DNA of 64,000 bases from Cymbidium sinense (taxonomy: Eukaryota; Streptophyta; Magnoliopsida; Asparagales; Orchidaceae), in NCBI GenBank assembly GCA_021442155.1, contig CM038228.1:88121737-88185736 (forward strand). Direction: 5' to 3'. Of this stretch, positions 17,494-49,644 are shown piece by piece; position 1 is the stretch's first letter; every line of letters begins with the position of its first letter. A program made the position numbers and the translations under genes. The notes below the pieces were generated by a model. That model saw only the letters and a program-made list of their open reading frames with translations, searched no databases and was not told the DNA's origin.

Positions 17494-17495
<2 letters not shown>

Positions 17496-17566
<71 letters not shown>
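17496..17566. repeat. (AT)n microsatellite
   Basis: A pure alternating AT run of 71 bases inside the A-type 3' LTR. The homologous site in the 5' LTR (about 47230-47250) has only short T and A runs, so the repeat expanded after the two LTRs were formed. An apparent 117-codon open frame across it is an artefact. Confidence 0.95.
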
Positions 17567-17569
<3 letters not shown>

Positions 17570-17910
17570 ATGGAATTTATCATAAGCTTCAATCATTTGG
17601 AATTGATTTGACTTTGAGAAAATCAATTTGTTTGTTGGAATTGATTTAAGTTTTGATGTTGATTTGATTTGGAGTTTGACTTGAAGGGAGGAAGTGAGGA
17701 ATTGGTTCAAGCTATAGGGTAGGCAAATTTTCATAACACCCTTAAGGCATGACCTATTTCTATGGCTAACTCTTCTAAGTTTCTAGGGTTGGATTGAGTG
17801 TTCACCTAATCACTAGAACTATCTTAAGACTAAGGAACTTTTAAAGTCTAAGAGAAGTCCTATGTCTAAGATGGAGGGGTTGAGAGTTCATTCTAAAAAT
17901 GAGGTCAACG

Positions 17911-20640: not shown

Positions 20641-21900
20641 CAAGCTTTCATCTTTGATGGGTGGTCTCCTTAGACTAACACAAGTTCTCCACTTGGAAAG
20701 ACCTAGAGACCATCTTATTGTGAGCTTGAATCATTTTTGGCCTTATATTCAAGGTTCATGCCCGTAGATTCTCCTCCAAACCTTGAGCTCTTCTAACCAC
20801 AACTTTGCATTCTATAGTGATCGCAATGCTATCCTTAGTGAGAGTTAAACTTCTAAAGGTAGAATGGCTTGGACCCATACACTAAGGAAAATGGGGTAGG
20901 TTGAGTTGGAGTTCAGTATGTGGTGTGGTATGCCTACAAGGCTTCAACCAACTACTCATTCCATTGTAACTTGTTGTCGTCAAGAGTCTTCTTTAATATT
21001 TGGATAAGAGATTTGTTGAATGCTTCTACTAAGCGGTGTAGATGGTGGAGTATCTCTAATCTATACTATGTCTTCTAGCAAAGTTATTGATCTTGGTTCT
21101 TTTGAATGCAATACCATTATCAGATATAATTCGTCGAGGCACCCTAAACTTATATACGATATGGAACCTGAAAAACTGAAGCACATGCTGAGCTGTGACT
21201 TCTCTGAGTGGGATTACCTTTGCCCACTTGGAAATGTAATCGGTGGCAGTTAAGATGAACCAATGACCCTTGGAAGAAAGAGGATCTATCGGACCTCTAA
21301 TGTCGGTACCCCAACACTCAAATGGCCATGAGGCCAATGTAGAGTATAGAATGTTGAGTGATTGATGTAGGACCACACCGTGTACCTGACATTGATGGAT
21401 CTTCTAGCTACATCCATGCAGTCTGTAATCATCGAAGGCCAGTAGTATTCTAGTTTCTTGATCTTCATCTTCATCTTCAAACCAGATTGATGTGCTCTGC
21501 ATAGACCTGAATGTACCTCGATTATAATTTCATGAGCTTCATGTTTATCTAAACAACATAATCACATTTAATCAAAGGACCGCCGGCATAGGGTGCCATT
21601 AACGAGAGCATAGGAGAGAGCTCTCTGTTTCACCTGATGGGCTTTTAACTTTTCTTGAGGTTGTTTGTCGGTGTTTAAATAGTATATGAATGGTTGCCTC
21701 CAATCCAGCTCCTTGTCCTTATAGGCAACGACAACACCTTCAAGAGAAAGTCACTCGAAGAGTTCAGCATCAATAAGGAATAGGACTTGTCTATTTTAGA
21801 CTTTTATTGGAATGGACTTATCTTTCGGGCATACCAATTCTTTAGCAAGTTTGGCCAAAGCATCGCTATTATCTATGAACCTTGTATGGTGACTTGGGGA
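20641..21900 (-). pseudogene. int: Broken integrase of element A
   Basis: The integrase would insert element cDNA into host DNA. On the - strand a zinc-finger tail (LEYYWPSMITDCMDVARRS, near 21480-21400) is followed, after a frame change, by the catalytic core at 21376-21056. The core has GTDIRGPIDPLSSKGHWFI with the first Asp and ISDNGIAF with the second. In another frame near 21030-21010 VEAFNKS follows, carrying the Glu expected of the D,D,E triad. The C-terminal part (SLVYGSKPF, SFQVENL) continues in shifting frames to about 20650. All catalytic codons are visible but at least two frameshifts and several stops separate them, so no active enzyme is expected. Confidence 0.8.
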
Positions 21901-22432: not shown

Positions 22433-22780
22433 TTATAGTGGATTGGTTCTGGAAATCAAGCTCACCTTATGAGAAAGCATATAGTGTTGTAGCTTCCGAG
22501 ATGCAAAGATCAAAGCTAAACAATATTTCTCAATAGGTGAATAGTTTACTTTAGCAAGAATTAGATGATGGAGTAGTAGAGAGCACTCTCCTTCCCTTGT
22601 CATTGGCTTGCCAATAGAAGCAAGAGAGAGCATCCAATGCAGTAGAGGAGGATAAGTGGCCTTCCCGGGATAGGGGCTGCTAGAACTGGCAGCTGCACCA
22701 AATACTACTTGATATCTTCAAAACATTGCTGGCACTTATCATCCCACTTGAACTTGGCATCCTTTTTGGCAAGTGTTGAG
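22433..22780 (-). pseudogene. RT-linked RNase H remnant of element A
   Basis: The - strand frame at 22633-22433 reads KVNYSPIEKYCLALIFASRKLQHYMLSHKVSLISR, the end of the RNase H domain fused to gypsy reverse transcriptase. The preceding FKWDDKCQQCFEDIK (about 22750-22705) is the standard link from RT thumb to RNase H. A frameshift lies between the two frames. Confidence 0.8.
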
Positions 22781-27140: not shown

Positions 27141-29173
27141 TGATGATCCTCCTCAAGCTTAAGCCAACGCTTCTCTCACCTACTGCTCAATCATGCTCTT
27201 GATATCTTTTTTTTCTATATGGAGGTACTATCCACTACCTTCCTATACATGTTAGTGCTACATTGCTCTACTTGAGGTAAAGTCTTGGATGGATCCAAGA
27301 CATGCACCAACTCTGGCTAACTAGTCTCATCTATAGTAGGATGGACTACCTGTTATTGGTTTTGATGTAAGATAGCTGCTAGCAGATCTTCGAGCCTCTT
27401 CTCCATCCTATTTATTTTTTCATCCTTTTACTTTATCTGCTGAAGGAGGTGTTAGATCGAATAGGCTATTTCTTCCTGATCGGCCTTAGCTCCTTCCATA
27501 GTATGCTACTCTCTAAGGAGGGATCCCCTAGTGTCTATCATGTAAACCACTACTAAATCTCCAAATAAATCATCTTCATTGGGATCAAGCTAATCTTCTC
27601 CTCATCAGACCAATCATATCCTAGGATCTCTTTCTTCTCCATGAGATAATGGGCTACTATATCATCTAGGGAATGATTTGTCTAAACTGGCACAAATGAC
27701 TTTGGCTAACCGGTGGTGGGATCACTATCATGTACTATGAGGCACCGTACCTCCCCTGCTACTAAAGAGTTAACCCCTTGAGGGCTATACTCGCTAGAAG
27801 AAATACTCTCCTGAATATCACTGAATCTGTATGGGGTGAAACTCCTAGGAGGATCTAACATCATAGGTGCAACCTCACCTTCTCCCTCGACAGCTATCTC
27901 CATACATATTGTGGTGGTGGTGGTGATGGGATGACTCGATGAGTCTCCATTCCTTCCTCATGACTAGGCAGGTCAGTGAGAGCTTGACCTCACCATAGTA
28001 GGCAGGGTGTAGATGGAATGAGATCCTTGGCAGTGGATCACCGGGTCCTCTTCTCCCTAGATATGGCCTTCATGGCCTTTGGTGGAACTGGAGATGCCGA
28101 AACATGGATTGGAGATGGTGGATGGGGGGTAGAGTGGTGTGGCAGAGACACCACCGACTCTCTCTGAATAGGAGTTGCTCTCCTATGATGGGTAGTCCCC
28201 ATGAGCAGAATGTTATCAGTATGATCGATCGGTAACCGTCGAAAATCAATAAGCGTGAGGCTGACTCTCTCTCACTCTCGGCTGGTAATGTGAACTAAAG
28301 TATGGGCCTCCTTGGCCCTCTCCTATCTAAGATGCTTCCCCATGTTGTGGGGGATAACGGACCTCAAATCAAATGAGCCACTGAGATCATCGAGGCTCTG
28401 CACTCAATGAGGGCAGAAGGCGGCATATGACCCCTCCTCTCCTGGGTGTGGCTAAACTATGGGAGGTGAATCAAAAATCCTCCTGACATCCTCTCTATCA
28501 GACCCAGAGAGAGGATGGAACTAGTTTATTGTAACCAGTAGGAAAACCATCATGGGAAACCCCTCAACAACAGACTGTGTGGCTGCCTCCATCTCCCTAA
28601 CAATGCGAGTGTGGTACCGCTTTATCATGCGATTCTTGTTTCTTTTTTGGGTCCTAGTAGGGTGAGCAGAGTAAGAGCTAGACCTAACCTCAAAAGCAAT
28701 GGAGACAATCCCTAATATCAGGGGAGCCTTCCCCTTAGAAGGTGCTAGTGAGTGGGTGTTTTCCACATTAGGGGCAACATGAGAAACACGTGCACATTGA
28801 CACTTCTATTGTGGGAACTTCCATAACCTTCCTCCTCATCGAGGGAATCTCAGATCGGCGGCATGTCAACTGAATGACGGCGACCACTGTGCTCTATACT
28901 GGTCATGAGGGAGGTCCCCTCACATGTAATCTGCCCCTCAAAACACCAAAATATGAGGTGGGCATAGTCAGGAGGGAGGTTGGATCTAAGCAGATCCATC
29001 CCATGGGGAAAAGTAAACACATATCTTGGCGCTACCATTGAATCAAAATGTACTGAACTGGAAAAAACTAACTGAAGGTGACTAAAACTATAATGTGAAA
29101 ACATACTTGAATCAAATTTTCTTGCTTTATTGATTTTGAATTCAAATTTAGAATTTGAACCCATACTCAACAT
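27141..29173 (-). pseudogene. Region upstream of gag in element A, possible extra ORF
   Basis: The first - strand frame after the hairpin leader is 29173-28850 (107 codons, starting MLSMGSNSKFEFKINKARKF), followed by 28766-28521 (81 codons, Ser/Arg-rich start then RMIKRYHTRIVREMEAA) and 27903-27706. Base composition is less AT-rich than the neighbouring leader, as expected for former coding DNA. Ogre elements carry an ORF of unknown function upstream of gag; this may be its remnant or the N-terminus of gag. I do not recognise a domain. Confidence 0.45.
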
Positions 29174-29252
29174 CTTGAAAGTGTTAAGTCGAGCTCAAAT
29201 GATTTAGAAGAGATTTTGAGATTTTATTGGAAAGAGGAATTTTTTTAATGTA

Positions 29253-30450
29253 GAATCCACTCTCAACAAATTTGGGTATGTTGAAAATGGGTTCAAATAT
29301 TTTTTTTAAGAGATGCTTTCATAGGTTCATGCTTGAATTTTGATTTTTTATTTTGAGGACCCTTTATTTAACAAATTTGGGTATGTTAAAATAAAGGGTC
29401 AATTGATTTTGCATTTGATTTGTGATTTTTGGAATCTATTACTTAGAAAATTTAAGTATGCTAGGTGAGGTGTTTGAAAACAATTTCTTTTTTTTTCCTT
29501 TATTTGCTTTATTTTATGAATCATTTGTGATTTGAAAATGAAATTTTTATTTAGCAAATTTGAGTATGTTAAATAAGGAATCCAAGTGTGTTTTGTGTTT
29601 TGGAAAATTTTAAAAATAGAACCCTTAGCAAATTTGAGTATACTAAGAAAATCCTAATGTGTTTCTTTTATTTTTTAGAGATTTTGATTTTGAAAAATAG
29701 GATCCTTAGCAAATTTGGGTATGCTAAAGAAATCTTAATGTGTTTATTTTCTATTTTTGGATTTTATTTTGAAAATGGAGACTTCACTTTAGCAAATATT
29801 GTATGCTAAAATGAAGTTCCAATGTGTTTTGATTTTTTGTGAAATGGAGATTTCACTTAGCAAATTTGAGTATGATAAATGAAATTCCAAAAGTTTTTCA
29901 AAATTTTTGTTTTTGAAAATGGAGACTTCATTTTAGAAAATGTGGTATGCTAAAATGAAGTTCCAAAAGTATTTTGAAAATTTTTGTTTTTTGAAAATGG
30001 AGACTTCATTTTAGCAAATGTGGTATGCTAAAGAATGAAGTTACAAAAATGTGTTTCAAATATTTGTGTTTTGAAAAGGGAGACTTCACTTTAGCAAATG
30101 GGGTATTCTAGAATGAAGTTTCAAATGTGTTTTGAAAAATTTTGATGTGTTTTGTTAATTTTGAAAAGAGAGATTTCCACTTAACAAATTTGGGTATTTA
30201 TATGGAAATCAATTATGTTTTATTTTTCAAAGATGTATTTTCATGTGTGGTTATTGCTTTTGAAAGAGAAAATTTCAACCTAATCATATATGAAATATGT
30301 TAAGTGGCATTTCAAAATAATGTCATTTTATTTGGAAATGACATCTTCATTCAATAAATTTGGATATATTGAATGAAGATGTTCATATGTGCTTTTTGAA
30401 AGTTTTATTTTTTTAATTTTGATTGGAAATGAAACTTCCATTCAATAAAT
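29253..30450 (-). repeat. Array of about 15 stem-loops with unit-specific, self-complementary stems
   Basis: Units are spaced about 70-110 bp. Many have the left arm, a loop close to AATTTGGGTA or AATGTGGTA, and the right arm. The best are 30341-30356 with 30367-30382 (16 of 16 pairs, loop AATTTGGATA), 29358-29373 with 29384-29400 (16 pairs, one bulged base, loop AATTTGGGTA), and units near 29779-29818, 29924-29962 and 30001-30042 (13-14 pairs based on ACTTCATTTTAGCA). Weaker ones lie at 29253-29294, 29431-29473, 29547-29576, 29624-29660, 29700-29734, 29848-29888, 30082-30121, 30171-30212 and 30270-30313. The spacers carry GTGTTTTGAAAA-like words. The last unit (30434-30450) is cut by the LINE poly(A). 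In element sense it lies between primer site and gag. Confidence 0.8.
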
Positions 30451-30479
30451 TTTTTTTTTTTTTTATGTTTATTGAACAA

Positions 30480-33180
30480 GGTCCTTAAAAGGGATAAACT
30501 CTAGAATTTCAAAGAGCTACAATCATTTAAATTAAATTTAAGAGTAAAGAAAGCATAAAACAATCAAAGATACAAGAATTGACATAATAAGCTAAAAACA
30601 AGAATAAAGCCAATATGGGATTGAATGCATGATAACTGAGCAAAAAGGAGAGAATAACGCAATGTTATAATAAGAGGATTAAAGTTAAGGTATCTGAACA
30701 AAGTTTGAAGAAAATATTTTTATGGTATGAAAATAAGGAGATAGAAGGCTCAGCTCAATCACATCTGAAAACAGTATGAGCATCAAACTTTGAAGGGTTT
30801 TAACATGAGCTACTATGAAACCAATAGGGAGTGAGATCATTTGACCATCATAAAACAAACTGAGAAGGTAGCATATTTGTCTCATCATATAGAAATTAGT
30901 TGGAGGAGACAACTTTGAAATCTGTTAGATAAGTCAATGAGCCTATAATTAAAGCATCCCAATCACATGATATGTAAATGAAAGTTTAGGAAAAAACGAA
31001 AACAATTAGTTGATGTCACACAGAAAGACAATGTGGAAATGACATAGCTCAGGGAATGGGTGCAACCAACCAATATTGGTAGAAAGAAAAGGCAGTTAGA
31101 GCGGCTCAATAGCAAGATTCAAGGCCACCATTCAATAATCGGATCAACCTCAATCAGAACAAAAGTAAAGGCAATAATGACAAGGCAGAAGGGTAAAGAT
31201 AATACCACTTTTTTGAAAAAACATCATAAAGTTCATCAAATCAGGTAGTAAATGAGATCAGAAAGGAGATGAAAATTTATTGAAAATAAAGAAAAGAAGC
31301 ATCCATAAAATAAAATAAGATAAAATGGGTGTCAATATTATTTATAAGAATAGGAAAACAAGGCAACAAATAGCCAAAGTAAAGAAGTAGGAAAATGATA
31401 AAAAATCAATGGCGCAAGGGAGAACATAATACCATAATTGAGATAGGAAATGATAAGCCAAAACAAACATAAAGACATAATAACGGGCATTATTTTAAAC
31501 CCATAATATGAATCTGCTTTGGAACCAAGCCAAACAAAGTAACCTCATGTAATCAGGATTAAGAAAACGGTCAATGAAAGGTAAATGAAAGTCATAGCTA
31601 CCACAAAAATTATAGGATTAAAGTCTGTGACATATTAAGAGATATAGGATATGACTCCCAAGAACAAATCGATTAGTAATGAAAAAGCTACACATAAGGA
31701 ACATTCATACAGCATCAACAATATCCCAATTAAGACAATTCTTGCGAAATACCCCAGCCATGTAACAATCATTAATTACTCCATAGGTTAGATTTAAACA
31801 GTTGATTGAGGTGATTTCACTTACTAAGCACTAAAGGGATACTACAAGAGGTTAAGGATAGTAGGCAATGGATAAACCAAATCCACAAACATCCAAAACC
31901 TTAAAACATGATAACATCGACTATAGTACCTCAGTAAATGACACTCCAATCAAAGGTAAGGCAAACCCAATAGAGGGGATTACAATATAAATAATGATAA
32001 ATATGATTTATTTAAATTAAACCCAATCCATTGATTACAAGGCTTTAGCAATCATTATAAATATGCTTAGCGATAATAATCTAAGTTTAAAAATAAGTGA
32101 ATAAACTGTAAGCGGCAAAAGCAAAAGAAAAAATGAGCAAATCTTCAATGACAACCATAAACTAATCCAATGTTGACAATCAGTTAATGTACCAATGGTA
32201 GGTGGGAGAGACTTCATTGCAATCAATAATTTAAAAAGTAAAATTCAAGATCGAGCTTGCTGACAAAAGGTAAGAAAAATGGAAATAGAATAAAGGTAAA
32301 GAAAGCTACCACTAAACCCATAGAAAATAATCAAATCAATAAACAACCATGGCAAACCTTAAAAACCAAAATTTAATTAATTAAACCATTGAATAGAGGT
32401 GCTTACACAAAATCCCAATCACTAAGGAAAGATATGAAGCTTATCCAAATTTGGTATCGGCAAAACTGAACCATAATCAAAAAGAAGGCATATGAGCAAG
32501 GGTCAAGTAGGCTGCAGCCATAATAACAACAGCCTAAACACCAATCATGTAAGTAGGTAGTGCAGGAGGAAGTCCAAAGAAAGCAGAAATAAAATAAATA
32601 ACAAATAAAACTAAAGCAAAGTTCATGTATCAACATCATTATAGTTGATAGTTGATCCCAAAGAGCCAATAATCACATGAGTAGTAATCCACCGTTCATG
32701 TAACTAAGGCATTAATTACCAACATAATTCCATCCATTCAAAGTAAATAAAATAGTGTTAAGAATCAAAAAGTGGTGGTATTGGGTTGAGAATAGCAAAA
32801 GGAAGGATTCAGGGTCTAATACATACCCACCTAAGAACATCTTTAAAAAAACCAAAAAAAATCCAAAGCGGCCAAGGACAAAACCCATCAAAAAAAAAGA
32901 ACCAAAGTATCTGCATAACTAGATGAGCAAACCTAATAGGGCGTTGATCAAAACCCATCAATCGAATGTCCACAATCGACAGGAGATCAATGAGACAAGA
33001 GAAACTTTAGGTTCATTTTAAAATTTAGCGAACAAAAGTTAAAAATAATAGGAAATTTAACATTACCAAGATAGACTAGGACATTGGGAAGGATACCAAA
33101 TAAAAAAATAGGCAATGATATCTATTAGTATCCATAAAGAACACAAGGAACAGAAAACCAAAAAAAAAGGCAAAGGGAGA
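30480..33180 (-). other. T-rich 3' part of the LINE, no coding domain recognised
   Basis: Strongly T-rich on the - strand and lacking recognisable protein motifs. Short hydrophobic open frames (30912-30685, 32226-32035, 32669-32403) follow from the T-richness. It could be LINE 3' UTR or captured flanking sequence. Confidence 0.4.
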
Positions 33181-34540
33181 ATTAGATTCGTAAGGAAAGT
33201 TGTCCAAGTAACAGACCATAGTATTTGGGTAATGTAAATTGATCAAAGAATATGATATTGTCTAATCTATTGATTTGCAAGGTAATGTTAGTTACCTTAC
33301 CATGAAATATGAGTGATGGTAAAATTCAGTGAGAGAAGAGCCCTAGTTTGCTTGAGGAGGTAGTACAAATAAGCGTTGCTCATATTGGTAGAGTCAAGGT
33401 CGAAGAGCATCCACCTCTATCCAAATATTGATCATTTTGAAGACAAATTTCTAGAGCTTTGTGGACAACCATAAGCTGATAAAGAACGATCTTTGGAAAT
33501 AAGGGGATAAGCAAATGCACATAGAACAATACCCTTAGAATAAAATGCCTCCACAAGCCATTATGAGAGAGCCATCATTATTATTTTAATAATATGATCA
33601 AGAGGTTTTTCCAAAAAAACCATTCTATCATTTGATGAAAGAGTAAGGTTGAGGCCCAATTTATTAGCGGATTTACCTTTAAAATACTTGTGATGGATTA
33701 AATTGGCTTTAAATAAGTCACAAATTTTGTTTTAGTTCTAGATAATCCTCATGTGATTCATTGAATCCCACAATGTTTAATTTGGTCCATCCATATGAAC
33801 CAAATAAAGTAATGGCGAATATGATTTTAATATGACCTTTAATTTTTTGCTGTCAAGAAAAACTTCAAGAAGTTGATATAAAGTAAAAGAACAATTAAAA
33901 TTGATAGTGTTGAATAGATTGTCATACCAAATCCAAATTTTAGAGGCAATAGTCCATTAACAAAAACATGGTTAACATTCTCAATATGGGAACAACATTG
34001 ACATTTAGAGGGTAAATAAAACCCTTTACCCCAAACAAAGAGTCAACAGGAATAAAGTTTTTTGCCAATTAGAGTAAGAAGAGGGATATTGCTATTCCAA
34101 ATTTTGGAGAACATAATAGAAGAATCGATTGTCTTTAATGTGAATCCACACATTTTAAGGTTGAAATCCCATTATGAGATAACTTAAAGATAATTCATGA
34201 TTGTTAGTGATAGGAATACTAGTAATCATATTTAAGAAAGTGGAAGGAATAGAATAATTAATCTTACTAGTGTTCCATGTGGTTTTGCCATAATGAATTA
34301 ACTCTAATAGCGGAGGTGGAGTGTAGAGTAAGTCATCAATGGAGCAGAACCACTCAATTGTCTTAAAAAAAGAATTGCATTTACTAAGGATTCTGATCCC
34401 ATTTTAACAAAGTCTTCTCCACAAGAATGCACGATTTAAAAGGACAAATGAGAGGATGTTTATGCAATATTTAGAAGTCATGAAATTAAGAAAGACTATT
34501 TTTGCTCCTAAAGTTCCACCAAAGTTTGTAGGAAGGCATG
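33180..34540 (-). pseudogene. LINE ORF2 C-terminus: zf-RVT and RNase H-like remnant
   Basis: Reading the - strand with frame changes from 34440 leftwards gives the usual plant LINE order. First a linker (SLVNAILFLRQ, TPPPLLELIHYGKTTWN), then FLNMITSIPI, then a zf-RVT motif at about 34010-33960 (SKCQCCSHIENVNHVFVNG, with CxxC and His kept and the final Cys replaced). A decayed RNase H-like domain follows, with SKDRSLSAYGCPQSS near 33500-33450 and LNFTITHIS-like words near 33330-33300. Many stops are present. The reverse transcriptase core itself is absent. Confidence 0.7.
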
Positions 34541-34545
34541 GATAA

Positions 34546-37500
34546 CTTCTTTGATGGATTTACATCTGATTCTATCCAAGCTCAATCGAGCTTAGATCTT
34601 GCCCTAAAGGGTGGACGGATGTCCTCTCCCGCAAGGAAGATCAGTGATGGATCATGGGCCATCCATCCGCACATTTGGATGGACGACCATGATCAAGATG
34701 CATAGGATATTTGATTTAATCCTTTAATACCACGGGCTTAATCTCAGTCGTATGATCTTTGATCACGGATGGGGAGAAAGCGCGTAGCGTCGCCGCTGAC
34801 ACGATGTTATGATGTGACAACTTAAATAGCCTCTCCCGTCATGCCACGTGGAAAGCGCGCACCACGTCAGCCTCCACATGGTGTCGATGGGATTAGCTAT
34901 TTAATTAGGGGATTTATTTAACTATCCTTAATCATGGAAACTTCATAATTGCATAACTTATTCTAAAAAATTCCTAAAAATACAAAGTAAAAAAGCATTG
35001 GAAAGATAATTCAAGGAAAATATTCTAAAATTAATTTCACTAGATTTTGATTAGTGTTATTTTCTTAATTAGGGTTTTAATGAAAACTTAATAACTCTAA
35101 TTACTCCCTAATTATCCCACTGATTAATTCCAAATTTTCTTGGGATTTATTGATGGATTAATTAAGGGAATCAATTTATGAATCCTTAATCACTCTCTTA
35201 ATGTAATTAAGAGTAATTAAGCATATGAATAGTTATTTAATCCCTTTATTAAGTTATTTAAGCCTTGCTTAAGTATAGAAGAGGTTTGTGGAATGGATTT
35301 GGGGAATTGTTTCTAAGCCAATCTCTAAACCCCTTTCCTTCCTTAATCCAAACTTAATTAAGGGATAATCCCCTAATCACTTGCTTAATAAATTTGATAA
35401 AATTTTCAAAACATTCTAGAACCTAATCAATCCATCTTAGGTAGGTGCTTATGTGTTCAATAACCTAAGTAGCTCAAGGAAATCAATCCAACCTACATAT
35501 GTGGGAAGGGTTAGGAAAGTACTTAAATTAAACCCATTAACTTAATTAATCATTAATTGTGAGTCAATTGCATCAGGAACCTTTCTTTCCTAGGTGCATT
35601 GCTGATTTAAATTCCTTTTGTGGTTTTATGTCATATCATTGGCTCATAATTATTTGATTAAATATGTTAAAGTGGTATAGGTAAGGGGTAATTAACACAT
35701 TTAATTCACACCTTAACCTAACCAAAGCATAAAATTGATCTAATAACCTAAGAATTAAACTAAAACATCATACACATGTGGGAATGAGTTAGGACTAGCA
35801 AACTCATCTCACATTTCTCAAATTGAAATTAAACTCAAACAAAATCCAAACTCTCTTTAAAATAAATTTGATTTACTTTAAATAATCATATTCATAGGAT
35901 TGTCTTTATAAATTAATTAGGGTGAATGAATTTACATGCTTTCATCACTTTATTTCTTTCCTAATATGCTAAATGTGTATGCCATATGAGAATCATGCAT
36001 TCATGCTTTTTGAAAATCAAATTAAAAATGAAATGTCTCCTTTATGTCAAATTGCATGTTTTGGCTAAAGTAAAAAATATGAATGGCTATTATCACTATT
36101 AAAGCAAAAAATTATTTTCAAAACCCATAAATAAAACATAAAAACTGAAAAGTATGCTACTTATAATTATTTATTAGCTTGCATGTGAGTAAAATATAGA
36201 GATGTGCATAGTGTGGCTTTCCTTCTCTTTTCTTTTGGCATAGTTTTGAATAAGATTTGGCAAAGTGTATAGTTCATTTGAAAAGAACACAACACTTTCT
36301 TAGATCCACTCCTATTCATTCCTATGTCATTACTTAGGAAGGACATCCACACTTACACATATAAATTGCATAAACAAATCAAACAAACAAAATACAAATT
36401 TTTGCATATTTCTTTTTCCATTTATTTCTTTTGTACATGTGTATGTATTTAAGGAAAGTGATATTTTAGTCTGGACAACCCTAGGGTTGTGAGGCTTTAA
36501 GTAGCCCTAAGTAGGTCTGTACCTTACACCCCTGGTGCTAACAATGGTGTCGTATTAACTTATGCCTTTCATACATATATGTGTGCATATGAAAAATGGA
36601 TAAAAGAATCCCTCTACTTAATGAAAATCATGCATCATAAAGCATCCAAATTTTCTTAAGTAATATCACTTAGCATTCATTATGAAAGTGTGTTAAACAT
36701 CCCCATTTATATGTATAGATATGCTTAGGATTCATATATGCATGTTATACATGTTGGGAAAGAAATAAAGTGTTATGTGTTTTGTGATATTAATTCACTT
36801 TACTTAATCTTAAAATGCCTTTCTCTTTGAATAAGTTTGTTTAGGGAAAATCTAAAGTTAGGATAAATTAAAACACATAATAAAATATTCACTAAATAAA
36901 ATCAAACATGAATCTACTTTAGAAATTACTTAAGGTAGGGAAGGAAAGAGAAGTTCTCTTCTCTTTTTCCTCTCTTTACAACTTAGTAATTAATTGTAGG
37001 ATTCACTTAAACCAAATCAAAAATGCAAAATAAAATCAAACAAAGCAACTAAATCACTTAAATGAAACCACCCTCTAAGTTGAACATTCTCATACTTAGA
37101 AAACTTCAACCTTAAAGTCTAGCTAAGCATACCACACAAATCTTAAATAGCACACACATTAGGCTAAGTCACTACTTCTAGTCCTATGTTAGGGTGGTGC
37201 ATGGTTTGATGTTTATTTTTTATTTGTGATGTGATTTTTTAGTCTGGATGTTAGAGTGAATGTGTGTAGAATGAAGGTAGGATGATTTAGTCTAATCATT
37301 ATCTTCTGCAGGGGATTATGCTTAAGGGGCAATGTAATAAAAATATAAAATTACTTTTGCTGTGCAGGAGCCCTAAGAATAATCCAATAGGCCAGGTGGA
37401 CTTGATTACTTATTTTTAGGGTGCTAAGTCCAATGTACATACTTGGGATTTGTATTATTTTTTTAGCTCATCTTTGTTTTGTAGGTGTTAGTTAGATTTA

Positions 37501-39310
37501 CTTTTTCTTTTCATGTAATTTTGTTATTAGGATTTTAGAATGATTGCTATGGGGAATTAGGATGAGCATTAGTCATAAGATCTCATCTTATGTACCATAT
37601 GAAGCCTTTAGAGCATCCACCTTCCAACCATCCAAAAGACGGAACCAAAAGATGAAAGAAGAAAGAAGAAAGAAGGAAGAAGAAAAAAGAAAAGAAGAAG
37701 TGAAGACCCCCCACCATAACATGAATTCCTTTCTTAATTATAATTAATTCATTTGTAATCTAGGTTCTATAAGGGTAGAGCTCGGCTACCCAATTTGCTT
37801 TCAGGTTTGTGCGGTGGTGCCCGGCCACACATGGCCTTTTATTCTTTTGCGTTAGCTTTATAAAATGATTGATATTCTATTTAACTTGTGCATTAAGATG
37901 GCATCTTTTCCTAATTTCTTTCTTGCTTGATGTATGGCCTGGATGATGATTAGGCTCTTAGGAAAAATAAAATCTTTTACCAAATTAAACAACTCAAAAT
38001 TTGAAATGAACAACTCATAACCTTATCTAAAGCTTAGGTTAAAAATCAAGATAAAAGAATTAGCAACCCCTTAGCTGGATGTTGTCATTTCTTTCCTAAC
38101 ATCATGTATAAAAACATATTGCTTCACTCTTGATTGGAGGGCTTCCACCTTTTCCAGAGAATTTGGCTTGACCTGTGAGAGCCATGGTGGAAACACACCT
38201 TCTTATCTTGCTAATTTTGGCCCATAATCTAATTTCTCATGCATTAAACATAAAGATTCCTAAAGCCTGTGTCAAATCGATTGTCCAAAATAAAAATAAA
38301 ACATATGAAAATTTTTCATTAGATTTAAGTCATTTGAAGCATGCCCTTACATGATCTAGTCTCTTAGGGAGTGTGTTTACGGACTTAGTCTCATTCTAAA
38401 TAAATAACAACCTTGTTATCTTTCATAAACATATGACTTGCCTACATATTTTAAAATTGTAGGAGGAGTTAGTTGGTGGCCACACCCAGGTGGTTGTAAG
38501 TCCAAACAGTCAGGTTGATTATCCTCTCTTGTGGAGGTAAACCAAATACCCATTTTTTGCTTTGGATTTAGGTCATGCTTTTGGTCCTCACCAAAGCTCC
38601 CTAGATTTAGGTTCTGAGGTTGCTTCTCCCTTTTGCGGGCCATAAGTATAAATTCTCACCTCTTAGGCATTTCCATAACCTTGTACTATAGAATTGTAAG
38701 CCCTACATTTCTAATAAAAATTCAACCCAAATAAATTAATTCAATTTCAAAAATGTAAAGCTCAATCACAGGGTAGTTTGGGATGTTTATTAGGCTTCCT
38801 TATATCTTAAGCATCCCCTACTTATTTTCATTTGGCTTTGATAAGAACTCCCTCCTCTTGATCAATCCCACTTGACTTTCTAAAAATAAACCAATCGATT
38901 GATAGTCCTACCTTTCAAAATCTTTGGAGACAATGGTCATTTACCTTAATCGAGAGTATTCATATGGAATCCTATTTCTTATGATGTCATTAACTATGGG
39001 ACCTACCCCTATAGGGAACTTAATGAACCCGATTTAAAATAAACCTACTTTACTTTTCAATGTAAAGTAGGGGAAGAATCTCTAGTATTTTCTGAAGAGT
39101 CATAGTCCTTAGGAGTCCTTATTGAGGTGATTAGGTCCATTGTAAGGTGATGACTTTTATCTTTGAGATAGTACACCTTTTCTCAATGTCGTACCCAATC
39201 ACTCTAATAAGAACATCTGTGGATCTACATGGCATCCCAACAAGACATTTTTTATTTCTATTTTCTTTTATCCTCTCTTCCAAAAGGGGATAGATGAAGG
39301 CAGAGATATA
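34546..39310 (+). repeat. Partial A-type LTR in + orientation (arm of a giant inverted repeat)
   Basis: Its sequence is the reverse complement, co-linear throughout, of 39972-44790 in A's 5' LTR. It shares the CpG-rich block (34740-34890 with 44461-44640), the LTR tail around 37760-37840 (TATAAGGGTAGAGCTCGGC and GTGGTGCCCGGCC words), the purine microsatellite, and the final block with AAGTAGGG and GATGAAGG words. The first 2.8 kb of the LTR are missing at the left, where the LINE abuts. The last few bases are missing at the right, where element A's hairpin leader resumes. Confidence 0.75.
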
Positions 39311-39700
39311 AAAATTTTTCACCACAAGAGGTTTCATATGTGCTTTTTGAAAAGGTGAAAATTCTAACTTAACACATGTGGAATGTGTTGAGTGGAATTT
39401 TGCAGTTGTGATTTTTCTTGAAGATGTAACATCCATCCAATACATATTGAATGAAAAAACCCATCTTCAAATTTTTTGCTTTTTGAAAATTTATGGTTGT
39501 TGGAATTTTATTTTTGAAATATTTCTACATGTAACAGTTATGAAAATTGTTAGATGTAGTGCAAATATTTTATTAAATGTATCTTGAAAAAGTGCTTTTG
39601 AAAAGTAAGCCTTTTATGAAGGATTTATTTTATCTTTATTTTTAGAATGAACCTTTCCTTACAATAAAAATGGTAAGGAGGAAGTCTTTTAATCATTTTC
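39311..39700 (-). repeat. Continuation of element A's hairpin array
   Basis: The array resumes with the 20-base word at 39333-39352, identical to 30382-30401 and in the same orientation. Stem-loops occur at 39358-39401 (AAAATTC with GAATTTT plus CTTAACACA with TGTGTTGAG), 39517-39570 (arms 39517-39536 and 39548-39570, about 18 pairs) and around 39649-39685 (CCTTAC/GTAAGG). A weaker one lies near 39430-39455. This shows that 30451 to about 39321 is an insertion into one continuous leader. Confidence 0.7.
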
Positions 39701-39926
39701 TTTTTATTACATTTTTATTTCCATCCATTTGGGGAACCCAACAAGGGTTTTAAGATTAACACGGGGTGAGGTCCTAAAACCTAAAGATGTTATCTAGCTT
39801 AACTTTAGAATGAAATAAGCTAAGTGCCAATAAAAAGAAAGATAGTCTTAGATTCACACCAAAGTACAAACTCACTATCGATACTTGGAGACAATGATCA
39901 TTTACCAAAGATGGAGAGAGAAATCA
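39701..39926 (-). other. Leader of element A next to the primer site
   Basis: In element sense it follows the primer site with TTTCTCTCTCCATCTTTGG (39904-39922 complement), which is shared with elements B and C, then enters the hairpin array. No open frame of note; the apparent + strand frame at 39824-40009 crosses the primer site and LTR end. Confidence 0.55.
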
Positions 39927-39944
39927 TCCCCAGCGGAGTCGCCA
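39927..39944 (-). promoter_or_regulatory. Primer binding site of element A (tRNA-Arg, perfect)
   Basis: On the - strand it reads TGGCGACTCCGCTGGGGA, complementary over all 18 bases to the 3' end of plant tRNA-Arg(ACG) with CCA. It lies about eight bases inside the 5' LTR boundary. The perfect match contrasts with the 15 of 18 in elements B and C and fits A being younger. Confidence 0.9.
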
Positions 39945-41473
39945 AAAAAATCTGTGATGAAAATCATTCTATACATCTCTTCCTTCATCTATCTCCCTTT
40001 TCTTTTTAGGGAAGAGAAGGATAAATGAAAACATAAATATATATAATACATCTTGTTGGACACCACATAGATCCGCAAAGGTTCTTATTGGGGTGATTGG
40101 GTATAACATTGAGGAAAGATGCACAATCTTGAGAGATAGAAGTCACCAACCTACAATGGACCTAATCACCTCAATAAGGACTCCTAAGACTATGGGTCTT
40201 GAAATGTGCCAGAGATTATTCCTCTACTTTACATGAAAAAGTAAAGCAGGGTTTATTTTAAACAGGTTCATTAAGTTCCCTATAGGGGGATGCTCCCATA
40301 GCTAATTATATCCTAAGGAACAAGAATCCTTAGGAATACTCTAAATTAAGGTAAAATATCATTATCTCCAAAGATTTTGAAAAGGTAGGACTATTAATCG
40401 ATTGGTTTATTTTTAAGAAGTCAAATGAGATCTATCAAGAGAAGGGAGTTCTTATCATAGCTAAATGAGAACAAGTAGGGGATGCTTAAGATACTAGAAA
40501 GTCTAGTAAGCATCCCAAACTACCCAATGGTTAAGCTTTATATTTTTTAAATTGAATTAATTTATTTGAGTTGAATTTTCAATAGAAATCTAGAGCTTAC
40601 AATTCCATGATACAAGGTCATGGAAGATGCCTAAGAGGTGAGGATTTATGCTTTTAAAGGAAGTAGCAACCTAAATCTAGGGAGCTTTGGCGAGGGCCAA
40701 AAGCATGACATAAATCTAAGGTGAAAATGGGTATTTGGTTTACCTCCATAAGAGAGGATAAACTACCCGACTGTTGGACTTACAACCACCTAGGGGAGGC
40801 TACCAACTAACTCCTGCGGTTTTCAAATATGTAGGCAAGTCAAATGTTTATGCGAGATAGTAAAGTTGTTATTTATTTAGAAAGATACTAAGTCCTTAAA
40901 CACACTCTCTAAGACATTAGATCAGGTAGGGCATGCTTTAATGACTTAAATCTAATGCAAATTTTTTATATATTTTATTCTTATTTTGGACAATCAATTT
41001 GACATAGGCTTTAGGATTCTTTATGCCTAATGCATGAGAAATTAGATTATGGGCAAAAATAGCAAGATAAGAGGTGTGTTTCCACCATGGCTCTCACAGG
41101 TCAAGCCAAGTTCTCTAGCAAGGGTGAAAGCCCTCTAATCAAGAGTGAAATAATATGCTTTATATGCATGATGTTAGAAAAGAAAGTATACATCCAGCTA
41201 AGGGATTGCTAATTATTTTATCTTGATTTTATAACCTAAGCTTTAAATGAGGTTATGAGTTATTTATTTTTAATTTAGGTTGTTTAATCGGATAGAAAAT
41301 TTATTTTTCTAAGAGCTTAATCGTCCAAGCCATACATCAAAGCAAGGAAGAAACAAAGAAAAGATGACATCTTAATGCGTAAGTTAAACAAACATCAATC
41401 AATTTATAAAATTAGCATAAAAGAATAAAAGGCCATTTGTGGTCGGGCTCCACCGCACAAACCGAAAACAAAT

Positions 41474-41508
41474 TGGGTAGCTGAGCTCTACCCTTATACA
41501 ACCCGGAT
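41474..41508 (-). other. Conserved TATAAGGG and GGGTAG/CTACCC block in LTR
   Basis: On the - strand a TATAAGGG word runs directly into GGGTAGAGCTCAGCTACCC, whose ends GGGTAG and CTACCC are complementary. Counterparts: 37766-37796 (+), 7280-7310 and 58720-58755 (+, element B, partly decayed), and 11017-11035 in LTR D (partly deleted). Role unknown: the first part looks TATA-like, the second is a potential stem-loop. Confidence 0.45.
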
Positions 41509-44460
41509 TACAAATGAATTAATTACAATCAAGCAAGAAATTCATGTTATGGGGGTCTTCATTCTTCATTTATTCTTTCTTCTTTCCTTCTTTCTTCTTT
41601 CTTCTATCTTCTTTCTTCTTTCTTCTTTTGGATGGTTGGAATATGGTTGCTCCAAAGGATTCACATGGTACAAAACATGTAATCTTATAACCAATGTTCA
41701 TCCTAATCCCCCATAACAATCATTTCAAAATCCTAATTGTAAAATTACATGAAAATGGGAAAATGAAATCTAACTAACACCTGCAAAATAGAGATTAGCC
41801 AAACAAACCATACAATCCCAAGAATGTATATATATGAATTGGACTTAGCACCCCACATATGAGTAACCAAGTCCATCTAACCTATTTTAAATTATGCTTA
41901 GGGGTATAAACACCTGCACAACAAAAGTACTTATATTTTTTATTTATTACAATGCCCCATAAGCATAATCTCTGCGAAGATAATGATTAGACTAGATCAT
42001 CCTATCATTCATTCTTTGCACATTCACCCTAACATCCAGACTAAAATATTATATCAAAAAATAAAAACAATGCATCAAACCATGCACCACCCTAACCTAA
42101 AGCTAGAAATGGTGACTTAGTCTAATGTGTGCTTTAAAAGGTTTCTATGGTATGCTTAGCTATGGCTTTAATGTTTAGATTTTCTAAGTATGAAATATGT
42201 TCAACTTAGATGGGTGATTTTATTTAAGTGATTTAGTTACTTTAGTTGATTTTATTTGTGTTTTTATTTGGTTTAAGTGAATCCTATAATTAATTACTAA
42301 GTTGTAATGAGAGGGAAAAGAGAAGAGAATTTCTCTTCCTTCCCTACCTTAAGTAATTTCTAAAGTAGATTCATGTTGATTTTGTTTAGTGAATGTTTTA
42401 GTATGTGTTTTAATAAATCCTAAGTTTAGATTTTTCTTAAACAAACCTATTCAAAAAGAAAGGCATTTTAAAATTAAGTAATCTGAATTAATATCATAAA
42501 AACATAACACTTTATTTCTTTCCCAACATGTATAATATGCATATGGATGAATCCTAAGCATATCTATACATATAAATGGGGATGTTTAGCACACTTTCAT
42601 GATGGATGCTAAGTGATGTTACTTAATAAAATTAGGATGCTTTATGATGCATGATTTTCATTAAGTAGAAAATGGTTATTCTTTTATCCTTTATTCATAT
42701 GCACATGTGTATGCATGAAAGGCATAAGTGAGTACGATGTCATTGTTAGCACCAGGGGTGTAAGGTAAAAGACCTACTTAGGGCTACTAAAGCCTCGTAA
42801 CCCCTGGATTGTCCAGGCTAATATACCACTTTCCTTAAATACATATGCATGTACAAAAGAAATGAAAGGAAAAAGGAAAAATCCAAAAGTTTATGTTAAT
42901 TTGATTTTGGTTTGTTTATGAAATTTACATATATAAGTGTAGATATCCTTCTTAAGTAATAACATAGGAATGAATTGGAATGAATTTAAGCAAGTGTTCT
43001 ATTCTTTTCAAATGAACTATACACTTTGCCAAATCCTATTCAAAACTATGCTAAAAAAAGGATAATGAAACCCACACTATGCACATCTTTATATTTTACT
43101 CACACACAAGCATATAAATAATTATAAGAAGCATACCTTTCAGTTTTGATGGTTGATTTATAAGTTTTGAAAATAATTTTAGATTTAATAGTGATAATAT
43201 CCATTCATATTCTTACTTTAGTCAAAACATGCCATTTAACATAAAGGAAATATTTCATTTTAATTTTAATTTTTTTAAAGGAATGAATGCATGATTTTTA
43301 TATGACATACACATTTAGCATGCTAGCAAAGAAATAAAAGGATGAAAGCTTGTAAATTCATTCACCCTAATTAATTCCTAAAAACAATCCTATGGAATAG
43401 AATTATTTAAAGCAAATCAAATTTCTTTTAAAGAAATTTTTTTTTATTTGAGTTTGATTTCAATTTGAGAAATGTAAGAAGGTTTGTTGGTCCTAACCCA
43501 TTCCCACATGTGTATATCATTTTTGTTTAATTTTTAGGTGATTAGATCAATTTTATGCTTTGGTTAGGTTAAGGTGTGAATTAAATGTATTAATTACCCC
43601 TTACCTACACCACTTTAACAAATTTAATCACATAATTATGAGCCAATGAAATGACATAAAATCACACAAAGAATTTAAATCAGCAATGCACCTAGGAAAG
43701 AAAGGACCTAATGCAATTAGCTCATAATTAATGATTAATTAAATTAAAGGGGTTTAATTTAATTACTTTCATAACCCTTCCCACACATGTGAGCTATATT
43801 TTGATTTCCTTAAGCCACTTAGGTTATTGAACACCTAAGCATCTACCCAAGAAAGAATTGATTAAGTTCTGGAATGTTTTAATTTTAAAATTTTGATTAA
43901 TTAAGCCATTTAATTAAGTGATTAGATTAGTTAATTAATTTTTCACCTTAATTAGATTAATTCAAATGAAATAAACTTAAGAAAAAAATATATGGGAAAG
44001 AACCCCTAATCTCATTCTCTAAGTCCACTCACTATTCTAGACTAATTAGCAAAATTAATTAGTGGATTTATTACTATTTAAAAGATAATTAATCATTTAA
44101 TGAATTAAGAGAGTGATTAAGAATAAGCCAAGCAATTTCCTTAATTAAGCCATTAATAAATTCCAAGAAAATCATGAGAGGTAGAGGTCATCCCATTAAT
44201 CATTTCTCAGAAGTTTGGAATTAATCAATGAAATAATTATGGAGTAATTAATGTAATTACATTCCCAATAAAATCCTAATTCATAAAATATCACTATTCA
44301 AAATCAAGTGAGATTAATTTTAAAATATTCCTCTCTGAATTACCTTTTAATGTTTTATATTTTATATATTTTTTTGATTTTTCTATAATTAGTTATGAAT
44401 ATTTGATGTTTCCATGATTATTAAGTAATTAATCTCTTAATTATATGGCTAATCCTATTG

Positions 44461-44640
44461 GCACCACGTGGAGGTTGATAGAGCGCACGCTTTTCATGTG
44501 GCATGATGGGAGAGGCCACTTAAGTTATCACATCATAGCCGCGTCAGCGATGATGCTACACGCTTTCTCCGCATCCGTCTGATCAAGGATCAGACCACTG
44601 AGATCGAGCCCGTGATATTAATAGAATTAAATCAAGGATC
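44461..44640 (-). other. CpG-rich block with G-box in element A's 5' LTR
   Basis: It holds CACGTG at 44465-44470 and CpG-rich words such as GCGTCAGCGATG, and is mirrored at 34740-34890, where about 14 CpG occur within about 150 bases. This is a likely transcription-control region of the LTR by position and composition, which is inference only. Confidence 0.5.
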
Positions 44641-47472
44641 CTACGTGTCTTGATCATGGACGTCTATCCAAAACACATGGAAGGACGACACAAGATCCAT
44701 CCCTGAGCCCAACTATGGGAGATGGCCACCGTCCATCTTCCATGTCATGATCCAAGCTCAATTGAGCTTGATTGAGCTCAAACTCAACCCACACCATCAT
44801 CATGCAAGGAGATAAAGATATAACAATCCATTTCACTTGGGGTGAAACTTTCCTTCACAAAGGACCAAAGAAAATTGAAATTATGCTTGGTTTTGAATAG
44901 TACCTCATCGGAGACTATCACCGGGGCTCAAATTGATGAGGTAGCTTCATCTAGTGGAGACAAGGCTCTGTTAAAAGTTTCAAGCCTTGGGGTTGAGTAG
45001 ATCTCTCTATGGACCAAGCTCACCTTCAAATCCTTGTGGCCTTGATTGAAGTCACCTCTCCCTTTCCTTTAGAACTTGGATTAAGCTTGGAGTGAATTCG
45101 ATTGAGTCCTCTGATGAAGCTTGTAAGAGGAATTGGCTTGATTTGAAGTAATGGATGAGATGGGTTTTTACTTGAGCTCCTGTATTTTTAGTTTAGAGAA
45201 ATCCAAAAATAGGGAAATGGAAAATGCTTAGGAAACCATGTGGGAGCTTACAATCACTTTTTTGAGTTCTATGCTTCAATCAAATAAGAGAGAGTAGAAT
45301 TCAAGTGAAATTAGGGGGAGTATATCTCCCCTAGGTGAATCAGATGGCCACAAGCTTCCTTACCATTTTGATCAAATACACCTACTTGGGTGGGTTTGTT
45401 AGGTCGTTTGGGGTGGCATTGCATTCAGTTTGGCCAGAGAGAGGTAGTGGAAGAGTGCCATGTGCTTGAAATGAGTGGAGAATGATTCCCATGTGCCCAT
45501 GTTCAAGTAAGTGGTCAATTTTTACCTTGGGTTGGATTGGGCTGACCCAAACCCATTAAGTCATGTGCACCATGTCCATTAATGACAATTTGGTCCACTT
45601 GACCAAATTCCAAGTGGTTTTGATTTTAGGTTACCCTATGGCCTAGGGTTAAAATGGTCATTTGTCCTTGATTTTAGTTTGAATATGTTTGGTATGATTG
45701 AAAAATGGGTTAGGCCAAGTTTCATTGAATTTGGAGTTGGTTTGATATGATTTGGCTCATGTTGACCCATTTAGGTCAAAATGGGTCAACTTGGGTCAAG
45801 TTGACCAATTAGTCAAATTGGGTCAAACCAAGGTTGGGTCAAGTTCATATGACCATTTGAAATATTTTGGCATCATTGGTTTGGTTCAATTTGATTTATA
45901 TTTGAATTTGGTTCATTTGATTTCATTTAGGTCAAATGGGTCAAGTTGACCAATTTGACCCATTTGGCCTATTTGAGTTAGGTCATGGGTTGGTTTATGT
46001 TTGGTTAATCATTTGAAATGGATTGGTATCTTAGATTTGGCTTAATTTGACCTTTTAGGCCAAGTTGGGTTCAAGGTCAATTGAACTAGGTTGGGTCTAG
46101 TTGACCAATTGAGGCTTTGGTCAAATTCAACAATTATTCTTGAATGAACTTGACCCATTAGTTTCAATAAATTTGGCTTAGATCAAGTTTTGACACATTT
46201 TGACTTTTTAGGTCAAGTTGGGTCAACTTGGGTCAAGTGGCCAATAGGGCTAGGTTAGGCTCAAATAGTTGCTTGGTCAAGTTCAAACATTGATCATGAA
46301 TGAGTTTTGATCAATGGTTTTAATAAATTTGGCCTATGGTAGATTTGGCTAGTTTAGATTTCATTTTGGTCAAATGTTGACTTGTTCAACCCTTAGGTTT
46401 GACTTGGTTTGATTTGAGTGATTGGTCATCTCATGATGATTGTTGCTCACAATGTGAGGCTTAGCTGGGCTTAGTTCAATCCAATTTGGGTAGGATTAGA
46501 ATTTGGCTCAAATGGGTACTTTAGGTCACTTTGGATCAAGTGAGCCTAAGTGGGTCAAATGGCTTGGTCAAAGCTTGATTTGAGTTTGATTGAACTCACA
46601 TATGGACTTATGATTGAAATATAAATCCATTTGCAAGTGGTTTGAAGTCAAATGGGTTTTGATTCATTTGACAATTTCAAGTTCAAAAGGGTGAACATGA
46701 GTTTGACTTGGGTTCAATTTTTTAATTTAGTTTTGGTTCGATGATTAGAGTTTGTATTTATATTGGGATTCATGATTGAAGGATTGATTAAATCATGAAG
46801 ATAAATCAAGGGTTTGGCTTGATTTGAATTTGATTTGGCTAGGTTCAAGAATTTGACTTGGAAGGCTTAGGTTGGGTTTTGGTTGAATTTGAGTTTGAGT
46901 TTTGAATTGATTTTTGAATATTTGAATTTATATTTCATTTATATTTGTGAATATAAATAAGAATAAAAATGGGTTATGAGAAAATTCCTTGAATTTGAAT
47001 TGATTTAGATTTGATTTAGGTTAAGTCCATAAGATAGAATCAAAGTGACTTAGGAAAGATTTTTATTTGGATTTGAATTTTGAATTTGGTTTGATTGATT
47101 TGAATTTATATTTCATTTATATATGTGAATATAAATGATAATATAAATGGGTCATGAAAAAATTTATTGAATTTAAATTGATTTGGATTTAATTTAAGCT
47201 AAGTCCATAAGAGGGAATCAAAGGACTTAGGAATTTTTTAAAAAAAACTTGGAATTTCAATCATAAGCTTCAATCATTTGGAATTGATTTGAGTTTGAGA
47301 AAATCAATTAGGTTGGAATTGATTTAAGTTTTGATATTGATTTGATTTGGAGTTTGGAGTTAGTTTGATTTAGAGTTTGACTTGAAGGGAGGAAGTGAGG
47401 AATTGGTTCAAGCTGTAGGGTAGGCAAATTTTCCTAACATCCCTAAGGCATGACTTATTCTATGGCTAACTC

Positions 47473-47477
47473 TTCTA
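47473..47477. repeat. Target site duplication, left copy (TTCTA)
   Basis: It immediately precedes the TG of the solo LTR and is identical to 49516-49520. The uninterrupted homologous site at 17771-17777 in the other A LTR reads CTTCTAAG. Confidence 0.95.
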
Positions 47478-49515: not shown

Positions 49516-49520
49516 TTCTA
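49516..49520. repeat. Target site duplication, right copy (TTCTA)
   Basis: It immediately follows the CA end of the solo LTR and is identical to 47473-47477. Confidence 0.95.
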
Positions 49521-49644
49521 AGTTAGGTTGAGTGTTCACCTAATTACTAGAAGTATCTTAAGACTAAGAAACTCTTAAAGTCTAAGAGAAGTCATATGTC
49601 TAAGATGGAGGGGTTGAGATCTCATTCTAAAAATGAGGTCAAGA

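Follow-up and report, generated by a model that had tools for sequence, protein, structure and literature searches.

Retroviral leaders carry a few different hairpins. The hairpin array considered in this study resembles the retroviral psi/DIS leader in that it lies between primer site and gag and consists of stem-loops in sense RNA, and a marking of genomic RNA is what we infer for it here; distinct from psi/DIS, it comprises up to 20 tandem units of one loop type, with stems that covary between units. Coronavirus SL5 represents the case of several 5'-leader stem-loops that share one loop and are discussed as packaging signals; these hairpins, however, are few, are not arranged in tandem and belong to an unrelated virus. 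Fungal mitochondria have double-hairpin elements, in which hairpins recur with a constant loop on variable stems, but as dispersed mobile DNA. Among plant LTR elements, BARE (Ty1/copia) is described as having conserved dimerisation and packaging signals together with separate RNA pools; it belongs to a superfamily other than that of the element analysed here (E1), and no hairpin array is mentioned for it in the accessible portion of the source (PMC3735527). Of the same lineage as E1 are the Tat/Ogre elements with hypervariable tandem repeats in the 3' UTR downstream of gag-pol, for which an origin in abnormal strand transfer or recombination in replication was hypothesised (PMC7004042). The repeats of E1 are instead located in the 5' leader, each of them a hairpin, and the word hairpin is absent from the main text of PMC7004042. 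For a tandem array of loop-conserved, stem-covarying hairpins in the leader of an LTR retrotransposon, no described counterpart was found in a literature search made mostly without subscription papers, in line with an earlier note on this DNA whose author, a sequence-reading model, knew of no such system.

The DNA analysed (hereafter, the window) is a stretch of 64,000 nucleotides from the orchid Cymbidium sinense (contig CM038228.1, positions 88,121,737 to 88,185,736). It is a nest of long LTR retroelements, with W outside E0 and E0 outside E1, the ends of the nested elements being approximate. In W, the outermost piece, a motif resembling a primer site lies at +14 (3 mismatches); as read by eye, gag-like text extends up to about 3349 and pol-like text resumes past about 59060. 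E0 sits within W, with LTR copies at 3350-7584 and 54934-59026 and a primer-like site at +8764 (3 mismatches). E1 in turn sits within E0 on the minus strand, and the hairpin array is its leader, which runs from the primer site at 39944(-) to the gag-side ATG at 29038(-) and is filled by stem-loops (Table 1). The primer-site motif TGGCGACTCCGCTGGGG is one that we take to be of the Ogre type, complementary to tRNA-Arg. The LTR start at 39953 adjoins it, and the LTR, extending to about 49642 with nested insertions possible inside, is very long, as in Tat/Ogre. A tRNA-Arg primer site and very long LTRs were both described in orchid Ogre-like elements (PMC9289625). The left LTR copy at 9862-17908 is possibly the 3' LTR of E1. 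On the minus strand the RNase H piece stands ahead of the integrase piece, the order of Tat/Ogre, with an integrase score below cut-off and the genes broken; for the gag start (28850-29038) the protein database yielded no homologue. Judged by primer site, LTR length and pol order, E1 is a Tat/Ogre-like Ty3/gypsy element. The succession of primer site, array, ATG and, beyond it, RNase H- and integrase-like pieces agrees with the placement in a Tat/Ogre leader that had been claimed earlier. The leader is split by an insertion, in which the match to the E2 LTR stops at 39326, with array text picking up again at about 39334; for 30456-34576 there was no match in the compared parts of the window.

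Table 1. Parts of E1 and hairpins of its leader, by position in the window
Feature	Position	Strand	Basis or remark
E1 5' LTR, outer boundary approximate	39953..49642	-	matches 34577-39326 (inverted) and pieces of 9862-17908 (direct)
E1 primer-binding site TGGCGACTCCGCTGGGG	39928..39944	-	exact motif; sole 0-mismatch site of three in the window
Splice-donor-like GGTAAA directly past primer site	39901..39906	-	GT kept in 20/22 copies with flank found (39 scanned); speculative
Primer-side leader hairpin TAGCTTA/TAAGCTA	39795..39822	-	stem finder score 7; longer homologue in L045, L052, L058
Primer-side leader hairpin GGTTTTAGGA/TCTTAAAACC	39746..39781	-	stem finder; L012, L024, L045, L058 carry a homologue (up to 12 bp)
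Primer-side leader hairpin CTTCCTCCTTAC/GTAAGGAAAG	39653..39684	-	by eye; stem finder favoured overlapping 39663-39719; homologues in L045, L058
U18 (CTACATCTAACA/TGTTACATGTAG)	39522..39570	-	fold z -3.45, 0/200 shuffles
U17	39418..39472	-	fold z -4.88, 0/200 shuffles
U16 (CACTCAACACAT/ATGTGTTAAGTT), other loop	39356..39403	-	fold z -5.65, 0/200 shuffles
Insertion splitting E1 leader, outside array	30456..39326	+	includes on its right (34577-39326) E2, an inverted LTR akin to that of E1
U14, type I (TTCATTCAATA/TATTGAATGAA)	30338..30386	-	fold z -6.55; covariance-model E 1.3e-5
U13, weak, diverged loop	30270..30316	-	19/200 shuffles fold equally; missed by covariance model
U12, in type K position	30170..30212	-	fold 0/200; covariance model 2e-5
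U11, type G	30080..30122	-	fold 0/200
U10, type G	30003..30041	-	fold z -6.58
U9, type G	29920..29965	-	fold z -5.83
U8, type G	29845..29889	-	fold 2/200 shuffles; covariance model 7e-10
U7, type G	29776..29821	-	fold z -7.49
U6, type G	29697..29736	-	covariance model 1e-12; fold 0/200
U5, type G	29616..29655	-	covariance model 6.9e-7; fold 1/200
U4	29542..29581	-	covariance model 1.6e-7; fold weak, 25/200
U3, decayed	29435..29473	-	covariance model 0.21; fold 10/200
U2, type A (GACCCTTTATTTTAACA/TGTTAAATAAAGGGTC, one bulge)	29358..29400	-	fold z -6.19; covariance model 3.8e-9
U1, type C (CCCATTTTCAACA/TGTTGAGAGTGG)	29254..29293	-	fold z -5.17; covariance model 2.9e-7
Last leader hairpin ahead of gag, other loop (CTTTCAAGA)	29152..29199	-	by eye; L012 homologue scores 14
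Coding start downstream of array (MVAPRYVFTFPHGMD...)	28850..29038	-	ATG at 29038
RNase H piece, E1 pol	22433..22717	-	PF17917, 27.5 bits, cut-off 24.8
Integrase piece, E1 pol	21056..21403	-	PF00665, 29.4 bits, below cut-off 32.6

The recurrent stem-loops first noticed by eye number 14 at 29254-30386, three of them weak, with further ones at 39356-39822, and they exceed what shuffled sequence offers. A unit is built from a stem of about 10-19 bp and a loop of 9-10 nt, UACCCAAAUU or a close variant, with an A-U closing pair. Since the sense of the element is the minus strand, it is the RNA loop that reads UACCCAAAUU; the conservation of the loop was recognised correctly in the earlier note, while the sequence quoted there is the reverse complement. 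Both long stems it singled out exist, the one at 30341-30382 as part of the hairpin 30338-30386 (score 17.5) and the one at 29358-29400 with one bulge (score 14). In 29240-30455 there are 12 stems scoring at least 10, compared to a mean of 4.95 in dinucleotide shuffles, none of 300 of which reached 12. At higher scores, too, in the kind of shuffled control that the same note had suggested, the array was rarely matched (stems scoring at least 12, 4 of 300 shuffles; at least 14, 2 of 300). The stretch 39327-39900 has 4 stems of at least 10 (shuffle mean 1.13; reached by 1 of 300), and the sub-stretch 29240-29500 is weaker when taken alone (2 stems of at least 10, equalled in 30 of 300). Folded singly as sense RNA, 12 of 17 hairpins beat all 200 shuffles; the other five are 29612-29660 (1/200), 29845-29890 (2/200) and the three weak ones at 29430-29480 (10/200), 30270-30316 (19/200) and 29536-29586 (25/200). 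The tile holding the 29240-30455 array ranks first of 52 window tiles. Hairpin-rich tiles are present elsewhere in the window too; in two coding tiles of E1, weak stems (score 8) are in excess over shuffles (7/300 and 6/300), while stems scoring at least 10 are not. What sets the array apart from other hairpin-rich tiles is the repeated loop in combination with compensated stems. Arm scores at loop motifs range from 6 to 17 for the 11 motifs in the array and from 0 to 6 for the 21 elsewhere in the window. Across 28000-41000, Rfam gave no match at gathering score, and viral contigs contained no exact match to one loop pattern.

Two queries directed at the E1 leader were run against the genome from which the window comes (3.53 Gb, 2174 contigs). 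A hairpin query gave 1397 first-look candidates, the best 40 of which were scored, and all 39 matches other than the window were fetched (first set). A leader query of 39700-39900, outside the repeated-loop part and including two primer-side hairpins with other loops, gave 3886 first-look candidates, the best 40 again being scored; 20 of the 39 other matches listed were fetched (second set). The genome copies are thus best-scoring matches and not a random sample. The array, which the earlier note had proposed to look for in related elements of the genome, is carried by all 20 copies of the second set; it is a family trait of the E1 family. Starting on the primer-site side, a leader typically presents a set of single hairpins bearing other loops, after these I-K-G(n)-A-C, and on the gag side a last hairpin whose loop is different again; individual units are absent or untyped in many copies. 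Type I has the stem TTCAATA/TATTGAA and occurs up to four times per copy; type G (TTTAGCA/TGCTAAA) occurs as a run; type A has TTTAACA/TGTTAAA and type C TTCAACA/TGTTGAA; the most frequent version of type K contains two mismatches. Loop motifs per copy range from 1 (L031, a single weak motif) to 18 in the first set and from 7 to 20 in the second. The leader stretch of L045, 2546 nt long, has 28 listed stems scoring at least 8. ATG triplets, the gag start included, number 17 in the leader stretch of L038 and 31 in that of L045. A covariance model (R1), trained on 12 out of 24 listed units (type G, loop of 10 nt), recovered 12 array hairpins on the window's minus strand at E values between 1e-12 and 0.044, with U3 at 0.21, U13 missed, and nothing outside the array below E 0.07 in the window. 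A counterpart model based on sequence alone (R2) likewise recovers many units, with 303 matches at E values of 1 or less where R1 has 392. The number of stems in the E0-family leader (8781-9480, L070-L079) surpasses every one of 20 shuffles in 7 of 10 copies, that of the window included; for the three copies listed these are single unrepeated hairpins (5-10 stems scoring at least 9 in 1400 nt, shuffle means 3.1-4.3). The listed E0-family hairpins being single and unrepeated, the repeated loop is not seen outside the E1 family, with E0 as the sole other family compared.

The stems change between units and yet pair, as claimed earlier; that they differ completely was too strong a statement, since they fall into related types. 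In the window, the arms of one unit pair with a score of 10.7, as opposed to 6.7 with arms of other units (0 of 20000 permutations; n = 17 units, with U13 and U16-U18 chosen partly by eye for pairing), and the result holds also for outer arms alone and for U1-U14 alone. Cognate arms paired better than swapped arms in all 33 copies that hold 6 units or more (first set of 39 copies plus the window, the window counted; 0 of 500 permutations each) and likewise in all 20 second-set copies (19 with 0 of 1000 permutations, one with 1 of 1000). A stem score of at least 7 was present under 230 of 247 loop motifs in the second set, compared to 59 of 1235 with shuffled arms. The regular expressions for the loop were self-made, so that loop conservation is partly built into motif-based counts; in a loop-blind check, 163 out of 348 stems of the leaders had the motif at their apex, compared to 279 out of 4000 19-nt windows drawn at random. 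When arms are swapped only within a type, the cognate arms win in A, in I and in G (120 of 269 units sampled; 0 of 2000 permutations), whereas C and K exhibit little or no cognate advantage (70/2000 and 2000/2000).

Among 173 distinct arm pairs (first 20 copies plus the window), positions 2-9 are Watson-Crick paired to 74%, compared to 18-30% when the register is slid by 1-3. Unit types were further compared in sets of 10 and 11, hand-chosen from 281 distinct arm pairs (first set plus window) and from the second set. For the 11 types, among which neither the A type with its bulge nor the G type with a 9-nt loop was included, 95.5% of cells are paired, as against 26-46% in slid registers; 24 cells have a two-sided change, and 7 of 10 pairs are changed on both sides. 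Three of five measures beat all 500 letter shuffles; pairs with two-sided change (51/500) and further pair types (216/500) were not above them. For the 10 types, compared pairwise over 9 pairs, two-sided changes that keep the pair number 108, one-sided changes 47 and two-sided changes that lose the pair 7, while swapped right arms gave averages of 19, 155 and 42 for the same three classes, none of 195 reaching 108. Against a tree-based null, the ungapped arms are 0.708 Watson-Crick, compared to at most 0.634 in 100 simulations (0/100). Covariation, implied by the initial reading of the stems as compensated, is supported for the structure as a whole and for no single pair (none at E < 0.1); the 24 columns tested are also those from which the tree was derived. 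The central claim that pairing is kept during sequence turnover is borne out by arm swaps, slid registers and tree null alike, and the compensation between unit types is real.

The compensation is old: the orthologous hairpins of present copies have no clear excess of compensation or constraint. In the orthologous C hairpin, compared over 36 copies (window counted), stems were no more constrained than spacers (32 stem sites with 15 singleton variants and 6 shared ones; 123 spacer sites with 65 and 26, respectively). Among 248 nearest-neighbour unit contrasts, 17 two-sided changes were on register, 6 of which preserve the pair, and 8-16 were found in shifted registers; the total excess on register is thus slight, and between near-neighbour units two-sided changes are not in clear excess. 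Departures on the sense strand were G-U in 213 and A-C in 189 cases (75 and 75 as distinct events), and this approximate equality means no strand preference in substitutions. Two candidate signs of selection that were tried, a G-U bias for the sense strand (G-U close to A-C) and a present-day constraint in the orthologous C hairpin or the near-neighbour contrasts, were accordingly not seen. The resident copies would be mostly dead, mutating freely after insertion. Arm repair by the host genome appears not to take place, and so the compensation would have arisen in the replicating lineage rather than in resident copies.

Regarding the strand on which the fold is displayed, predicted pair probability in stems (20 copies) was 0.79 in sense and 0.61 in antisense RNA, predicted unpairedness was 0.91 and 0.47, respectively, in loops and 0.52 and 0.24 in linkers, and each of the three values was higher for sense in every one of the 20 copies. 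In the linkers A accounts for 51% and G for 4% of the letters; in the arms G makes up 16%. A G-poor strand folds less by chance, and base composition alone may thus suffice for the predicted sense folding advantage; the result is to be read as loops that would be displayed in sense RNA, not as selection for display.

From the collective evidence we propose that the array acts in cis as a multivalent signal of genomic RNA, located in the leader of this Tat/Ogre-like Ty3/gypsy element; the chances of this reading being correct we rate as even. It has traits of a packaging or dimerisation signal in its place between primer site and gag, its presence in sense RNA and its stems compensated between unit types. 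Each unit would display a 9-10-nt loop, UACCCAAAUU or a close variant, atop a stem, and a partner would recognise the loop together with the shape of the helix, leaving the stem sequence free to change while pairing is kept. A constant loop over stems that differ and still pair is the trace to be expected of such a partner. The active RNA would be selected for its fold and bound by a protein, and because the array sits between primer site and gag, the element's own Gag would be the likeliest partner, acting in packaging or dimerisation of genomic RNA, with packaging as the likeliest and favoured candidate role. Many equivalent sites would confer avidity. Units would be gained and lost by tandem duplication and deletion, chiefly in the G and I runs, with K, A and C mostly single. 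A complement of the loop, AATTTGAGTA, at 26802(-) in the gag region could be thought of as a kissing partner and is probably due to chance. Alongside, 29153-29173 pairs with 29278-29298 (21 nt, 90% complementary), connecting the last leader hairpin to the first type-C hairpin, possibly as an alternative fold beside gag.

The rival to be weighed foremost is a rewriting of arms without function, in which reverse transcriptase switches onto the opposite arm of a hairpin, thereby perfects stems and creates new two-sided sequence, and tandem duplication spreads the stems. It accounts for the compensation without selection. Template switching was proposed generally as maker and keeper of RNA hairpins (PMC8794818), its role in hairpin upkeep being called less clear by its proposers, and strand transfer in particles was put forward as a source of the Tat tandem repeats (PMC7004042). 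The common I1 and G9 units differ on both sides at five of nine pair positions, and other parts of these elements are likewise hairpin-rich, both consistent with rewriting. Acting alone, however, it does not hold the loop constant across types with differing stems. It also predicts occasional inverted loops, none of which is clear beside 717 loops, picked by motif, in 59 copies (18 motif matches on the other strand are AT-rich look-alikes, as judged by eye), and wobble pairs are common at some positions, as stepwise change would give. We consider arm rewriting without function improbable, while allowing it a real share of plausibility.

Alternatively, the array could control translation or splicing: it would block scanning ribosomes and lie in an intron or be shunted, with full-length RNA kept for copying and the spliced or shunted form making Gag. 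The ATG load of the leaders (17 in L038, 31 in L045) speaks for such control, as do the donor-like GGTAAA past the primer site, the GT of which is kept in 20 of 22 copies, and the acceptor-like TTTATTTTCAACATTGCAG ahead of the ATG (about 29083-29112, minus strand). The splice-like frame would permit a separate gag messenger, as in BARE, which was shown to keep its RNA in separate pools, one of them spliced, the splicing being of another kind (PMC3735527). Yet the acceptor-like AG is kept in only 13 of 28 copies listed, the flanks of the donor-like GT appear as conserved as the GT itself, and a barrier alone would need no single shared loop, making control of translation or splicing unlikely as the function of the array.

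Much more doubtful is a role at the level of DNA or small RNA, with cruciforms formed in the DNA or hairpin RNAs diced to small RNAs. The stems are able to form on either strand, and the balance of G-U and A-C fits a DNA-level structure; nevertheless, the predicted antisense folds display loop and linkers poorly, the resident copies are without stem upkeep, and small RNAs directed against the element itself would presumably harm it. A drift of ordinary tandem repeats can hardly be credited, nor can a chance formation of the hairpins in DNA rich in AT. Such DNA does yield many stems, and other window tiles are hairpin-rich, but 0 of 300 shuffles (stems of at least 10), the arm swaps and the slid registers oppose both readings.

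The multivalent leader signal has a more specific form, tentative and perhaps too bold, which we would think possible without expecting it: a modular RNA code of up to about 20 shared-loop stem-loops, tandemly multiplied, whose stems selection or template switching in reverse transcription would have remodelled in the course of the lineage's existence, acting as an avidity platform that loads genomic RNA into particles. If this were true, the number of units could be a heritable dial for packaging success, with copies of the family competing. How plant LTR retrotransposons discriminate genomic from messenger RNA is poorly known, and the array is a candidate signal for it, repeated up to 20 times per element in what an unverified first look suggests to be some thousands of candidate elements in the genome. 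The many parallel units with a shared loop make stepwise selection and template switching testable against each other.

Lastly, several features of the window outside the array deserve record. A succession of hairpins, TTGACCTCATT/AATGAGGTTAA being one of them, opens both E0 LTR copies (3350-3660 and 54934-55240); in all five measures the LTR start at 3350-4000 lies ahead of every one of 300 shuffles, and the one at 54934-55590 does so in three of five (12/300 and 22/300 for the other two). The first hairpin at the E1 LTR start is similar, by eye, to that of E0. Tandem repeats of about 160 bp at 53375-54296, upstream of the right-hand E0 LTR, occupy the position where Tat elements are said to bear 3' UTR repeats. 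Short LTR tandem repeats with palindromic ATTTATATT units are found at 17178-17565 and 46897-47232, and a 70-bp run of AT dinucleotides (17496-17565) is present in one LTR copy.
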